64,000 nucleotides of DNA. Origin: Megasphaera elsdenii (GTDB lineage: Bacteria; Bacillota; Negativicutes; Veillonellales; Megasphaeraceae). This document shows, piece after piece, positions 32,196-39,904 of the stretch. The position numbers and the translations under genes are program-made. Numbering within the stretch: the first letter of the stretch is position 1; the number at the start of each line of letters is the position of its first letter. Location: assembly GCF_020539865.1 (NCBI RefSeq), contig NZ_JAJBQV010000004.1, positions 1 to 64,000 on the forward strand. Direction: 5' to 3'. Below the pieces are notes generated by a model. That model did no database searches. It was not told where the DNA came from and saw only the letters and a list, made by a program, of their open reading frames with translations.

Positions 32196-33236
32196 CTACT
32201 TTCCATCAGAGCCCCGGTCGTCGTGATGACGGTCCTGACCGGTCGGGGCCAACTGAGTCTTAGGGACGCCAGCCTGGGCTACGGCATTCCGCATCTCCGT
32301 ATCGGCCATGATATTCTTCATATTATAATAGTCCATGACGCCTAACTTGCCTTCGCGCAGAGCCTGGGCCAGGGCCAGGGGTACTTCGGCCTGGGCTTCG
32401 ACGACTTTGGCCTGCATTTCCTGGGTATAGGCCTGCATTTCCTGCTCTTTGGCAACGGCCATGGCTCGCCGTTCTTCGGCCTTGGCCTGGGCAATCTGTT
32501 TGTCCGCTTCGGCCTGGTCCGTCTGCAGACGGGCGCCGATGTTGCGGCCTACATCAACGTCGGCAATGTCGATAGACAAGATTTCAAAAGCCGTCCCGGC
32601 GTCGAGGCCTTTGCTGAGAACAGTCTTACTGATTTCGTCAGGATTTTCCAGGACCTGCGAATGGTCCCGTGCCGAGCCGACACTGGTAACGATGCCTTCG
32701 CCGACGCGGGCGATGACCGTCGCTTCACCGGCGCCGCCGACGAGTCGGTCGATGTTGGCACGGACTGTGACCCGGGCCCGGACTTTCAGCTCAATGCCAT
32801 TCTGGGCGACTGCCGAGATGAACGGCGTTTCGATGACTTTCGGATTGACACTCATCTGGACGGCTTCCAGGACGTCGCGGCCAGCCAAGTCAATAGCACA
32901 GGCCCGTTCAAAAGTCAAGGACATCGTCGCCCGATGAGCGGCAATCAAGGCATCGACGACGCGGTCGACGTCACCACCGGCCAGGTAATGGGCTTCCAGC
33001 TGGTTGACATTGACGTCGAGGCCAGCTTTATTGGCCTTGACCAAGGGCAGGATGATTTTAGACGGGATGACCCGGCGCAGGCGCATGCCGATGAGGTTGA
33101 TAATGCCTACGGAGACGCCGGCTGCCATAGCCGAAATCCACAAGCCGAGGGGCACGAAGTGCAGGAACAAGGATACGACGATGACAGCGGCTATGATGAT
33201 GATGATGGGAACGGCTAAAAAGGATATAACAGACAT
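32196..33236 (-). CDS. floA: Flotillin-like protein FloA
   Basis: FloA organises functional membrane microdomains. The 346-residue protein begins with a re-entrant/transmembrane hydrophobic region (about 5-50), continues with the SPFH-like domain ([48 protein letters not shown]) and the coiled-coil tail rich in Ala, Glu and Gln ([20 protein letters not shown]). It lies directly downstream of an NfeD-type protease, the classical pairing of stomatin/flotillin with NfeD. Confidence 0.95.
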
Positions 33237-33250
33237 AAGATACCTCCTTC

Positions 33251-34561
33251 TCAGGGTTTGGGATGGCGTTCCGGTTCCGGTTCGACGACAACGCGGCTTC
33301 CTTCGACTTTGACGACACGGACGATGACATCACGGCCGATGAAAGTCCCATTGGCCACGGCGTCGACTCGTTCTTTGCCGAGGCGGATCGTACCGGATGG
33401 ACGCAGGATTGTAATGGTCTTGCCCCGTTCATAGAGATATTTGCTGTAGTCGGCCTGGGCTGTATATCCCTTTTCTTTCGTCGAACGGTTCTTGAGCGTT
33501 AATTTTTCAAAGAGACGGCTCTTGGGCAGATGCTTGCCGACAATATAAAACAGTATAATGGCCAGGACAGTCCCGCCGGCTAGGATGTAGACGGCTTCAT
33601 ATGTCGCCCCGAGCATAAAGAACAAGCTGCCGAACAAGAAGACGACGCCGGCCAGGCCAAAGATACCGACGCCAGGCGACGCCAGTTCCAGGCCGATGCA
33701 GAGCAGGCCCACGAGAAAAGCAGCGACGATTTTCAGGCCGTCTGCCAATGACTCATTGCCCGACAGGAGCAGCAGCCCGCCGAAGACAAAGGCCGTAGCG
33801 ATACCGGCACCGATACCGGCCATCTTGATTTCTGCCAACAAGGCGGCGATGATCAAAGCGACAAAGAGCGTCCGGACATAGGGATTCTGCAAGATACCCA
33901 TGGCCTCATCGCTCCAGTCCTTATCGACATAGGTCAGGCGCGCATCCCCCATACTGTACAGGGCCAGCGCTTCGGACAGCGTATCCGCTGAACCATCAGA
34001 TACGTTCAATTCCTTGGCCTGGCCGTCGGATAAGGCCAGTACCTTCCCCGGTTCAGCATAATCGGGATAGCCCTGAGATTTGTCAACCATAGCTTCGGCA
34101 ACGCCGGGATTATGGCCGTTCTGGGCAGCTGTCGCGCTGAATTCGGCTTTTAAGGCAGCGATGTTCTTTTCCGTATTGGGGATGGGCTCAGCCGCGCCAA
34201 TGCTACTTCCCGGCGCCATGATGATATGGCGGCACGACAAGGCGATGAGAGCCCCTGCCGACCAGGCCCGCGAGGTGACATAAGCGATGGTCGGGACGTC
34301 AGAAGCCATGAGCATATCGCGAATCTTCAAGGCGCTGTCTACGCGGCCTCCTAAGGTGTTGATGGTAATGACGACAGCTGTATCCCCTTCTTCGGCAGCC
34401 TGGCGCAGACCGCGCTGGATGAAAGCGGCCTGGCTGCCATCAATATCTCCGGAAATGGGAAGGACACGGACGGAATCGGCCTGCACAACAGCAGCCGGTG
34501 CGGCAGCTGCCAGGGAAAAGAACAAGACAGCAGCTGTTATCATGCGTAATAGAAAGGTCAT
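33251..34561 (-). CDS. NfeD-type membrane-bound ClpP-class serine protease
   Basis: A 436-residue protein with an N-terminal signal segment ([18 protein letters not shown]), a ClpP-like protease domain (residues about 25-215; [16 protein letters not shown], the nucleophile in [13 protein letters not shown], and catalytic Lys in [11 protein letters not shown]), several membrane helices (about 230-355), and a C-terminal OB-fold NfeD domain ([19 protein letters not shown]). It is the usual partner of FloA. ATG 34561 with GGTGAGG upstream is preferred over the GTG at 34579. Confidence 0.93.
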
Positions 34562-34575
34562 TCCCTCACCTGCTT

Positions 34576-34977
34576 TCACTCACTTTTTTTCGGCGCCTCG
34601 ATACATTGAAAATAACCGGCACGCTGGAGTTTTTCCAATTCTTCTGGTGAAATATTCCGGGCAGCCTGTTTTTCTAGTTCCTCAATCGGCTTGTCTTCAA
34701 TCATATGAATCTTGTCGATGACGGCATCATAGACGGCAGGCGGCTTGTTCGCTTTAATCCAGTCCAGCATGTGGTCGAGCCATTTACGGCATGTCCAGGC
34801 ACCTTCGCCATGGTTGTGGCCACGGAGTATCTGAATCTGAGCCTGTTCCGGAATCTTGGCCAGGAACCAGTTCCATCGTTCCCTGGCTATGAGATAATGA
34901 TAAAGTTCATCGACATCGCGCAAATGTTGTTCCCGAAGTTCCAGGGTATAACGCGACCAAAATAAACTGAGTGTCAT
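34576..34977 (-). CDS. Conserved-looking 133-residue protein of unknown function
   Basis: A soluble, mixed alpha protein (LFWSRYTLELREQHLRDVDE, ARERWNWFLAKIPEQAQIQI, HGEGAWTCRKWLDHMLDW, LQRAGYFQCIEAPKKSE). No signal peptide or known domain. GGAGG precedes ATG 34977 and its stop lies near the NfeD gene start, so it heads the NfeD-FloA operon. The nuclease-like Trp/His pattern is suggestive only; function unknown. Confidence 0.75.
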   Translation of the reverse strand: MTLSLFWSRYTLELREQHLRDVDELYHYLIARERWNWFLAKIPEQAQIQILRGHNHGEGAWTCRKWLDHMLDWIKANKPPAVYDAVIDKIHMIEDKPIEELEKQAARNISPEELEKLQRAGYFQCIEAPKKSE

Positions 34978-35229: not shown

Positions 35230-37812
35230 CTACGAATTAAATGCAGCTTCTAGGGAAGCAGCTCTTTCTTTGATTTCTTCAGTTGCTTCTTCACCGATAT
35301 AGGCTTCGGCCATGTTAGCGATATCGTCTTCATGGACGCCTATGTCAGCAATGCGCAGGTCCAGGTGCAGGGCCTTGGCCAGATAGCAGAGACGAGCTGC
35401 ACAGTCATCAGATGTAAAACCGCCCATCGTGCGAGCCAGTTTACCATAGAGGAAGGGATCCTTCCCTGCTTTAGCATCGATGACGACAGGGACGATAGCT
35501 GCCAAGAGCACTTCGTCAGCCGGGAAGGAGGTCTTGGCGACGGCTTGCGCCAGTCCTTTGGCTACCTGACTGCCCGTTTCTGCAGCGACCATGCTGCCGA
35601 TGACACCGGCTAGGACGACTTTTTCCCAAGCCCCTTTATCGGCATGATTGGTGCAGACAGCGGTCAGCTTATCATTCAAGATGTCGATGGCGTAAAGGGC
35701 CATGGCATCGGTCAGCGGCTGGGCATCGGCTGCCGTATAGGCACTGATGCATTCGCTGAGGGCGGCAAAACCAGAAACAGCCCGTTCTTTCTGGCTCATG
35801 CCAGTCATGCATTCCGGATCGACGATGACCACTTTGGCCAGCAGCGCCTTGTCACAGCTGCCATCGGGCAGGGACGCATCGAAGCAGGCACCGCTATGAT
35901 AGTCCGTCGGTACGAAAGTCAACGGCATGACAGCCTGATTCAAGGCACTGGCAGCGGTGCGGGCAATCATCTTTGCCCCTTCCATGACGGTATTGCTGCC
36001 GATAGCGACGATGAAGTCACTGCCGTCCTTCTTGATTTCGTCGACGGCTGAATTAGCCGTAATATCCAGGGATTTCCCTGTAACATGAGCAAAGCGGGTA
36101 ACAGAAATACCGGCATCATTCAAGCTCTTTTCAACTTCACGGACCAGGTCCCGTCCGTTCGTTGCCGAATCAGTGACGACTAAGGCCTTTGTCCCATAAG
36201 ATTTCAACAGTTCTCCGGCCATGTGACGCTTACCGGCACCGAAGACGACGGACACTGGCATGGAGAAGGAAAAACTGAGTGGCTGCGATACATACGTAAC
36301 AGGCGCATCCGATTCGACATTCTGAAGGGCTGCGGCCATAGCCTGACCAAAAGCCAGGTCGCCTGCTTCTTCGACGGCTTCATTATCCAAGGCGACATCA
36401 ATATGAGTGGCGAACTTGCTGCCATATTTGGCCTTGCAATAGAGGCCAAAGAGGACGCCCAGGATAGACCAGCCGAGGACCATACCCCATTCCTGAGGAA
36501 CCAAGGTAGCCCCGGAACCAGGGACGACATACATGACGACCATGAAGCCCGACATGAGGATAGCCAGCGCCCCGACCAGTTTATAATGACTGACCTTATA
36601 AGGACGAGCCATATCCGGTGCCTTTTTACGAAGGATAACAAAGGAAATAGCGACCATGCAGTATGCGACGCAGCAGCCGAAGTTGCCCGCATCGACGACC
36701 CAGACCAGCATCTTTTTGCCGAAGAACGGCGCGATGATAGACAAGAGGCCGATGAGCAAGAGCGCATGGACAGGCGTCTTATATTTGTCGTGTAATTTGG
36801 CAAAAATCCGCGGAATCATATACGATTCAGCCATAGAGTACATGGCACGGCTGCCGCCGATAAGGAAAGAATTCCAGCTGGTGATGATGCCGCAGAGGCC
36901 GCCGATAATGAGGACCTTAGCCATGATAGAGCTGCCAAAAGCAACCGCCATGGCATCGGCCGTAACCAGGCCGCCGACGCCTTTCATGGCAACGGCAATT
37001 TCTGCATGATTCATGACATAGCCGACGCCGAAGATGATGAGCGCATAGAAGAGAACAGCCAGGACGATGGACAAAATGAGGATCCGGCCGATTTTCTGTA
37101 AAGATACAGAAATTTCTTCCGCTGCCTGCGGGATGACGTCAAAGCCGATGAAATAGAACGGCGTCATAACGGCAACGGCCAGGGTTCCTTTGACCATATC
37201 CGTCGTCGTAGCTCCCATGAACAGCTGGCCTTCGAGGTTCGATACCGTACCCGTAAGGGCCGAAGCTGCGATGAGCAGGATACCGACGCCACCGATGATG
37301 ACCGTCAAGATAGTCTGCAAAATAGCTGCCGTCTTGGTCCCGATGATATTGATGGCCGTAATGAAGACAGAAACCAGAATGGCTACGGCCAGCCAGGAAG
37401 CGTAAATATCGAAACCGGCAACGGTATACAGATAGCCTGCCAGGAAATCAGGATAAATATAAGCTACAATGGTCGGCAGGGCGCAGGCTTCGAAGCAGAC
37501 GACACCGACATACCCTAAGACGATCATCCAGGTACAAATAAAAGAACCCAGCGGCCCCAAGGCCTTATAACTAAAGACGTGTTCGCCACCGCACTGCGGC
37601 ATAGCCGACGTCAGTTCGGCATAGGTCAGGCCGACGAAGAAAATCATGACGCCCCCAATGGCAAACCCCAGCATAGCGCCCAAGACGCCGCCTTGCATGA
37701 TCCAGTCACCTGTCGATACAACCCAGCCCCAGCCTATCATAGCCCCGAAGGCGATGACCAGGACGTCCCAAGCACTCAGGACTTTATCAAAATCAGACTT
37801 TTTTGTCGCCAT
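35230..37812 (-). CDS. Amino acid transporter fused to an iron-ADH-like domain without metal ligands
   Basis: An 860-residue protein in two parts. Residues 1-460 form an APC-superfamily permease with about twelve membrane helices (AFGAMIGWGWVVSTGDWIMQ, SAMPQCGGEHVFSYKALGPL, FDVIPQAAEEISVS, VILRKKAPDMARPYKVSHY). A linker of about 50 residues follows. Residues 515-840 resemble iron-containing alcohol dehydrogenase. Compared with the canonical iron ADH at 57002-58096, the ligands Asp190, His194, His258 and His272 correspond to Ala683, Glu687, Ala751 and Ala765, and GGGS becomes GSNT at 605-608. The domain is therefore probably non-catalytic, perhaps a regulatory cytosolic domain. The start follows the kinase-like gene's stop within its ribosome site (TGAGGGGG). 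Confidence 0.9.
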   Translation of the reverse strand: MATKKSDFDKVLSAWDVLVIAFGAMIGWGWVVSTGDWIMQGGVLGAMLGFAIGGVMIFFVGLTYAELTSAMPQCGGEHVFSYKALGPLGSFICTWMIVLGYVGVVCFEACALPTIVAYIYPDFLAGYLYTVAGFDIYASWLAVAILVSVFITAINIIGTKTAAILQTILTVIIGGVGILLIAASALTGTVSNLEGQLFMGATTTDMVKGTLAVAVMTPFYFIGFDVIPQAAEEISVSLQKIGRILILSIVLAVLFYALIIFGVGYVMNHAEIAVAMKGVGGLVTADAMAVAFGSSIMAKVLIIGGLCGIITSWNSFLIGGSRAMYSMAESYMIPRIFAKLHDKYKTPVHALLLIGLLSIIAPFFGKKMLVWVVDAGNFGCCVAYCMVAISFVILRKKAPDMARPYKVSHYKLVGALAILMSGFMVVMYVVPGSGATLVPQEWGMVLGWSILGVLFGLYCKAKYGSKFATHIDVALDNEAVEEAGDLAFGQAMAAALQNVESDAPVTYVSQPLSFSFSMPVSVVFGAGKRHMAGELLKSYGTKALVVTDSATNGRDLVREVEKSLNDAGISVTRFAHVTGKSLDITANSAVDEIKKDGSDFIVAIGSNTVMEGAKMIARTAASALNQAVMPLTFVPTDYHSGACFDASLPDGSCDKALLAKVVIVDPECMTGMSQKERAVSGFAALSECISAYTAADAQPLTDAMALYAIDILNDKLTAVCTNHADKGAWEKVVLAGVIGSMVAAETGSQVAKGLAQAVAKTSFPADEVLLAAIVPVVIDAKAGKDPFLYGKLARTMGGFTSDDCAARLCYLAKALHLDLRIADIGVHEDDIANMAEAYIGEEATEEIKERAASLEAAFNS

Positions 37813-38504: not shown

Positions 38505-39725
38505 TTATTTTGCCAATTCTTCGACCGCTTCTTTAATGATGGCAATGGCCTTGTCGACGTGTTCCTTCTGGAGGATCAGCGGCGGTACCAGGCGCAGGAC
38601 GTGGTCACCGATGGCCGTCGACAGCATATGTTTATCAAAGCATTTATGCTTCAAGTCTACGCTGTTGATCTTGTCGTCGAATTCAAGCCCTAAGAAGCAG
38701 CCCTGACCGCGGGCTTCCTTCAGATGCGGAAGTTTTTCGCGAGCCTGTTCCAAGAAGTATGCCCCCATCTTCTTGGCGTTACCAGCCAGGTCTTTGTCCA
38801 GGAGTTCATTGACTTCTGCCAAGGCAGCGGCGCAGCAGACCGGATGGCCGCCGAAGGTACTGCCGTGGGAACCCATGGTGAAGGCTTTAGAGACATCTTC
38901 CCGAGCGCAGATAGCTGCAATCGGCATGCCGCCGCCCAAGGCTTTTGCCATAGAAACAATATCCGGTTTAATGCCGTAATTCATGTACGACATGACAGCA
39001 CCCGTACGACACCAGCCGCTCTGTACTTCATCGAGGAGGAGGAGCAGGCCTTTTTCATCGCACAGTTTACGCAGGCCTGTGAGGAATTCTTTCGTTGCCG
39101 GATGGACACCGCCTTCGCCCTGTACCGGTTCGACCATGATACCAATCGTGTTTTCCGTGATGGCATCTTCAAAGGCTTTCAAATTGTTGAATTCAGCATA
39201 TTTGAAGCCCGGCGTCATGGCACCGAAACCGATCTGGCAGGCATTGTCCGGCTGGCCAGTAGCACTCATGGAACCAAAGGTACGGCCGTGGAAGGATTCT
39301 TTTGCCGTGATGATTTCGTATTTGTTGGGACCAAAGTGTTCAACGCCGTATTTACGGGCCATCTTAATCATGGCTTCGTTAGCTTCTGCACCAGAATTCT
39401 GGAAGAAAATCTTGTCCATACCGATAGTCGTGCAGATTTTTTCAGCCAGCAGGGCCTGCGGAACCGTGTACGGATAATTGAAAGTCTGCATGATATCCAT
39501 GCACTGGTCGATGACAGCCAAGACGACTTTGTCGTTACAGCTGCCAGCGCTGTTGACAGCGATACCAGCGTAGAAATCAAGGTACGGTGTCCCATTTTCA
39601 TCGTAGACATACATGCCTTTGCCGCGTTCGGCGATCATATCGAAGCGTTCGTACGTTTCGATCATGTACTTGTCTACTTTGGCTTTGATTTCTTCTTTGG
39701 TCAATCCTACATCACGTAATCTCAT
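38505..39725 (-). CDS. Class III PLP-dependent aminotransferase (acetylornithine/4-aminobutyrate type)
   Basis: A 406-residue aminotransferase. PLP-binding features: NSGAEANEAMIKMAR (phosphate site), FHGRTFGSMSATG, LLLLDEVQSGWCRTG, and the Schiff-base lysine in VSMAKALGGGMPIAA. The family includes ArgD, GabT and putrescine aminotransferases; substrate cannot be assigned without alignment. The downstream amino-acid transporter suggests that it catabolises an imported amino acid or amine. A promoter and a leader terminator lie upstream. Confidence 0.9.
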   Translation of the reverse strand: MRLRDVGLTKEEIKAKVDKYMIETYERFDMIAERGKGMYVYDENGTPYLDFYAGIAVNSAGSCNDKVVLAVIDQCMDIMQTFNYPYTVPQALLAEKICTTIGMDKIFFQNSGAEANEAMIKMARKYGVEHFGPNKYEIITAKESFHGRTFGSMSATGQPDNACQIGFGAMTPGFKYAEFNNLKAFEDAITENTIGIMVEPVQGEGGVHPATKEFLTGLRKLCDEKGLLLLLDEVQSGWCRTGAVMSYMNYGIKPDIVSMAKALGGGMPIAAICAREDVSKAFTMGSHGSTFGGHPVCCAAALAEVNELLDKDLAGNAKKMGAYFLEQAREKLPHLKEARGQGCFLGLEFDDKINSVDLKHKCFDKHMLSTAIGDHVLRLVPPLILQKEHVDKAIAIIKEAVEELAK

Positions 39726-39875: not shown

Positions 39876-39904
39876 AGTGTAATACTTTATACTTTCTTTG
39901 TCAA
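39876..39904 (-). promoter_or_regulatory. Promoter of the aminotransferase gene
   Basis: TTGACA, 17-bp spacer, TACACT on the minus strand, located after the trpS stop and before the leader terminator. Confidence 0.65.

Follow-up and report, generated by a model that had tools for sequence, protein, structure and literature searches.

Why would a transporter retain, in the same polypeptide, an enzyme domain that seems to have lost its chemistry? This question is raised by a gene of Megasphaera elsdenii, carried by contig NZ_JAJBQV010000004.1, of which positions 1 to 64,000 (64,000 nucleotides, hereafter the window) were analyzed. At 35230..37812 of the window, one open reading frame (ORF) encodes an 860-residue protein in which an APC amino-acid transporter is followed by a degenerate domain of the iron-containing alcohol dehydrogenase (ADH) family. 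These coordinates agree with a preliminary description made from the letters alone; the gene lies on the minus strand, as do its parts, its operon partners and the promoter-like sequence located below. The transporter domain (AA_permease_2, residues 12-442, 36487..37779) was matched with an E value of 1.2e-39 and 136.9 bits against a curated cut-off of 27, over positions 1-418 of the 427-position profile. The C-terminal part, already described as an iron ADH, was confirmed as such (residues 519-841, 35290..36258) by matches to Fe-ADH (PF00465, residues 519-641, E 2.1e-19, 70.2 bits, cut-off 31.3) and ADH_Fe_C (PF25137, residues 678-841, E 6.5e-16, 59 bits, cut-off 27). The explanation that we consider probable is that the fused dehydrogenase was inactivated and retained, and that its present role is structural rather than the sensing of NAD or metal.

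An assembly or frameshift artefact would be the simplest answer, and a lost stop between separate adjacent genes, as found in many relatives, would look alike. No support for such an artefact was found, and it can be set aside almost with certainty, since the same fusion occurs on independent contigs and in independent genomes. Close 860-residue proteins are encoded on other contigs (P0004, P0005 and P0006, with 99%, 94% and 92% identity over the ADH domain), and assembled genomes carry the fusion as well (G005, on a 2.48-Mb contig, 96% identical; G001, 91%). The fusion of Megasphaera sp. NM10 is 91% identical to that of the window, and the aminotransferases are 99.5% identical. A protein search with the ADH half, in which 7,995 candidates were scored, yielded 38 proteins among the full-length candidates, 32 of them with both permease and Fe-ADH domains, and distant fused proteins were found in Lachnospiraceae, Eubacteriales and Bifidobacteriaceae. 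The recurrence of the fusion from Megasphaera to Lachnospiraceae and Bifidobacteriaceae settles the earlier reservation that a frameshift or join might explain it. Furthermore, one genome per species was scanned for related loci (84,980 species), and the best 80 of 187 relatives gave the 79 nearest loci to which all locus counts below refer. The fusion is present in 52 of the 79 and the transporter is unfused in 27; in 25 of these 27 the locus holds an iron-ADH gene of its own, directly after the transporter gene in 24, so that an ADH, fused or separate, accompanies the transporter in 77 of 79 loci. Sequence patterns derived from the window protein matched no viral contig.

The fusion as such is already known to annotation pipelines. 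NCBI gives the name 'bifunctional amino acid transporter/iron-containing alcohol dehydrogenase' to P0022, P0025 and P0029 (Eubacteriales, Bifidobacteriaceae and Chordicoccus metagenome-assembled genomes), which resemble the window protein in domain order and transporter subtype; related loci share the kinase-like neighbour. The window gene likewise encodes APC then Fe-ADH in one ORF beside a kinase-like gene, but an intact dehydrogenase half is absent: the named and related fusions keep the four metal ligands and the NAD motif GGGS (P0022, P0026, P0028 and P0032 by alignment, P0025 and P0029 by reading), whereas the Megasphaera form has lost both. Whole-protein identity to the window protein is 49-58% for fused relatives outside Megasphaera and 67-74% for separate-gene transporters. 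The transporter half matches the bacterial APC transporters of known structure 5oqt and 6f34 (E 2e-22 and 7e-22), which we take to be GkApcT; unlike the window protein, these chains (461-471 residues) have no C-terminal enzyme domain. The literature within our coverage, which leaves out most subscription journals, contained no description of the fusion or of its inactivated form.

What the dehydrogenase lost was determined by MAFFT alignment to intact fused relatives. The ligands Asp/His/His/His are replaced by Ala683 (35764..35766), Glu687 (35752..35754), Lys752 (35557..35559) and Asp766 (35515..35517). The loss of all four ligands, the first two replacements and the 14-residue spacing of the last two positions had been described correctly; the Ala751 and Ala765 given for the last two were one residue off. 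The reported alteration of the Gly-rich NAD motif was also borne out: GGGS, the NAD pyrophosphate motif according to PMC5125639, is aligned with GSNT in the window (residues 605-608, 35989..36000) and with GGNT in the closest relatives. In addition, TGSE has become SGAC, and the window's own group lacks about 11 and 4+5 residues from two stretches, the second of which is mostly kept in other Megasphaera (L002-L004). Of the 52 fused loci, 48 retain both D,H,H,H and GGGS; those that do not are the four Megasphaera loci. Separate ADH proteins have all four ligands in 22 of 25 cases; the others run off contigs (L058, L062) or are a shortened ORF (L070). The four positions vary between Megasphaera lineages (AEKD, AKEY, AQAP and TQEP). 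The swap between E687/K752 in the window group and K687/E752 in L002 hinted at a salt bridge within the former metal cavity, an idea that was rejected because L003 (Q/A) and L004 (Q/E) do not show it. Compared with the type III iron ADHs FucO and 1,3-propanediol oxidoreductase, the window domain differs in having neither metal ligands nor NAD motif and in being fused to a membrane transporter.

Metal loss alone is no proof of enzyme death. Maleylacetate reductases, which have the same fold and likewise do not need the metal site, are active with the Asp replaced by Asn or Arg (PMC5125639), and the Megasphaera domain might still be catalytic by another such mechanism, the more so as P0033, a fused relative, has Asn at the ligand Asp position and maleylacetate reductase structures are among the fold matches. 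However, the signature of these enzymes, LHHKLCHTLGG with its essential Lys (PMC5741723), is absent from the window domain, which reads QVAKGLAQAVA in the alignment, and the ligand-site residues differ between species. Because GGGS is lost too and the signature is absent, catalysis is unlikely, and we give a metal-free enzyme very little credence. Judged from its residues, the Megasphaera dehydrogenase half is very probably inactive. Database names can mislead here: NCBI calls the Megasphaera protein P0020 an 'iron-containing alcohol dehydrogenase', a name for which its residues give no support.

Structure prediction indicated that the fold has outlived these losses. In the full-length AlphaFold model (mean predicted local distance difference test score [pLDDT] 78.5; predicted template modelling score 0.55), the transporter forms a helical bundle and residues 473-516 (36265..36396) have pLDDT <50, suggesting a disordered linker. 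A model of the ADH domain reached a pLDDT of 88.6 and its Foldseek/VIA matches include iron ADHs, so the iron-ADH fold is predicted to be kept, as the preliminary description had supposed. A Shine-Dalgarno-like GAGGGGG precedes the ATG of the fusion gene. The in-frame ATGs of the junction stretch (M491, M518 and M531) have no obvious Shine-Dalgarno sequence upstream, as judged by eye, and therefore separate translation of the ADH domain is not suggested.

Is the domain a passenger, functionless and decaying? The nonsynonymous rate (dN) of the ADH half is about 5-fold above that of the transporter half, loop stretches are missing, the C-terminal end is different, and relatives inside the clade have no such domain, all of which would fit decay. 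However, the ratio of nonsynonymous to synonymous substitution (dN/dS) of the dead domain is 0.115-0.131, and even its upper 95% bounds (0.167-0.188) stay far below 1; no stop lies inside the match in 5/5 genus-group genomes with the fusion. Moreover, when the four Megasphaera lineages were compared with 27 intact sequences, columns of the ADH half that are always hydrophobic were still hydrophobic in 310/352 cells, and always-polar columns still polar in 188/288. Strictly identical residues of the intact set were kept in 60/120 hydrophobic and 51/164 polar cells of the ADH half, and in 417/424 and 200/208 cells, respectively, of the transporter half. A pure passenger is thus unlikely. Such a residue pattern would be expected if selection acted on fold stability and the old site was no longer used; it is compatible with a new binding site elsewhere and is no proof of a scaffold.

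The preliminary description had proposed that the domain might sense a nucleotide or substrate and thereby gate the transporter; in a wider form of this idea, the ligand would be a nucleotide, an aldehyde or some other metabolite. The predicted fold, the purifying selection and a conserved run of residues in the C-terminal helical part are in keeping with this, and ErcA, which is iron-ADH-like and bears the name of a regulator (NCBIfam NF041833, 'ADH-like regulatory protein'), suggests that such proteins can regulate. ErcA shares the fold with the window domain; its model describes a 382-residue stand-alone protein, and the window domain scores 89.4 against a cut-off of 550 bits. On the other hand, the NAD motif and metal site are gone and variable between Megasphaera species, and close relatives without the domain exist. 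Nor are the functional positions specially conserved: in a test built on 17 motif positions, taken in part from PMC5125639, six Megasphaera sequences share a single residue at 2/15 positions of the former metal and NAD sites, compared with 80/328 positions elsewhere (Fisher p=0.54). Sensing at the old site is not borne out by these data, and a sensor in general, though possible, is doubtful and not favored.

To follow the history of the domain, a 90-row tree was computed from the transporter half in a careful IQ-TREE run. Among fused rows the change from intact to dead occurred once, with the half-degenerate P0033 counted as dead, and the fused or unfused state changes six times. Megasphaera and P0033 fall together in one clade (support 99/98); support for the deepest split is weak (65/98). 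P0033, P0030, P0042 and P0043 are half-degenerate: the Asp has become Asn, the first His is kept, the third ligand is Gln or, in P0042, still His, the last His is lost, and a conserved GDGK replaces GGGS. None of 380 genomes from the same class yielded the P0033 lineage (best match 56%, with two candidates scored per genome); 15 of the 380 match P0033 at E 1e-120, of which five, the Megasphaera-group fusion genomes, are open through both halves and ten are not. Domain-free transporters also occur inside the Megasphaera/P0033 clade, namely a second copy in NM10 (L001:4356-5798), just upstream of the fusion operon and 84% identical to the window transporter half, and the transporters of three other genomes from that genus group. 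Across the 15 genus-group genomes, five have the fusion, three only the domain-free version, and seven no match at E 1e-60. No ADH remnants adjoin the three domain-free transporters; in L101 another Fe-ADH, 26% identical to the intact L019 type, lies ~2 kb downstream. Since this paralogue and the three sister transporters lack the ADH domain, it is probably dispensable for transport itself. On the tree, the Megasphaera fusion lies apart from the separate-gene versions found in Selenomonas and other Veillonellaceae, which makes its acquisition from Clostridia plausible. Intact fusions of Bifidobacteriaceae (Actinomycetota; L021, L026, L030, L031, L032, L035 and L040) are nested among Bacillota rows, suggesting horizontal transfer.

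We propose that the ancestor was a bifunctional fusion of an APC transporter with an active, NAD-dependent and metal-dependent iron ADH at its C-terminus, probably reducing an aldehyde made from an imported amino compound. A single inactivation in the lineage leading to Megasphaera would have removed the metal ligands and NAD motif and, in the window's group, two loop stretches as well. The domain, presumably on the cytoplasmic side, would since have been kept folded and catalytically dead, with purifying selection acting on it less strongly than on the transporter. Today it would most likely serve a structural role, in stability, oligomerization or as a dock for operon partners.

Several observations weigh against this structural reading. 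With dN/dS near 0.12, the domain is strongly constrained for something that merely hangs on, and intact fusions provide a noisy contrast: dN/dS was 0.035-0.363 (median 0.22) for 38 intact pairs with dS 0.1-1.5, probably because distant pairs are saturated, and hand-picked closer intact pairs (13 of 20 with finite values) gave 0.035-0.160, overlapping the dead-domain values. The dN ratios likewise overlap at their edges, and the functional-site tests are not significant either way (Fisher p 0.54 and 0.34). In P0033, P0042 and P0043, the ADH half is almost as well conserved as the transporter (88.6% vs. 90-91% and 96.7% vs. 96.7% identity) and, by this comparison, looks actively used. The fold has active metal-free members in the maleylacetate reductases (PMC5125639), and any scaffold partner is a candidate only. 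A tentative alternative is that the dead dehydrogenase became a regulatory or docking 'receiver' coupling uptake to the state of the operon transaminase or cytidylate-kinase-like partner, and that the two dead lineages (Megasphaera and P0033/P0042/P0043) settled on different new surfaces. Whichever applies, the family shows every stage around a single conserved gene module, from separate neighbour genes through intact, half-degenerate and dead-looking but folded fusions to domain-free transporters. It is thus an experiment of nature on two questions, namely what a transporter owes to a fused enzyme and why a domain is retained once its enzyme is dead, and the window protein is a natural example of an enzyme part very probably stripped of chemistry yet retained.

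The ancestral fusion would have been encoded in a conserved module of cytidylate-kinase-like protein, transporter and ADH, in most cases next to an enzyme that removes nitrogen, for example a transaminase. In the window, the cytidylate-kinase-like gene (PF13189, 37826..38491; longest ORF, the true start may lie later) ends 13 bp before the fusion gene and is itself preceded, also at 13 bp between longest ORFs, by a class-III aminotransferase gene of the ArgD/ornithine type (38505..39725; Pfam; NCBIfam TIGR00707, 419.6 bits, cut-off 410.05). The three genes probably form one operon. This order was as first described, and the kinase-like gene carries more weight than then implied: it is present in 78/79 loci, the exception, L016, being a contig that begins only shortly before the fusion gene. 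Relatives of the window aminotransferase (ArgD-type, at least 60% identity) occur in 54/79 loci, a GabT-type transaminase in 32/79 and an ornithine-cyclodeaminase-like gene in 7/79, all lower bounds as many contigs are short. From these counts, kinase-like gene, transporter and ADH make up the constant module and the nitrogen-removing enzyme is variable. We infer that the transaminase produces the aldehyde that the ADH then reduces. Against the NCBIfam cut-off for γ-aminobutyrate transaminase (506.65), the GabT-type protein of L019 passes (522.6) and that of L031 fails (471.4). Because the neighbour enzymes vary among GabT-type, ArgD-type and ornithine-cyclodeaminase-like, no single transporter substrate fits all loci.

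The cytidylate-kinase-like gene is the most constant transporter neighbour across Bacillota and Actinomycetota, whichever nitrogen-removing enzyme is present. In L044, L045, L047, L049, L051, L052 and L053, the ornithine-cyclodeaminase-like gene (PRK06199, 'tyramine oxidase subunit B') replaces the aminotransferase, and six of these seven loci also have a three-part flavin oxidase-like set (DAO, BFD [2Fe-2S] and pyridine nucleotide-disulphide type). Two iron-ADH types stand beside the same transporter type, VGFDALCH (L019/L023/L028) and CGIDAMVH-like (L048/L055/L071/L066), and in one Megasphaera genome the gene of a distant APC transporter (L085, 31%) adjoins another iron-ADH gene (G003:C9:8625-9413). 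A promoter-like sequence, by consensus match only, lies upstream of the aminotransferase gene (39876..39904); 10 such sites were found in the region against 5.8 expected by shuffling. Downstream of the fusion gene, FloA flotillin and NfeD genes (32196-34579) are kept beside the fusion operon in Megasphaera.
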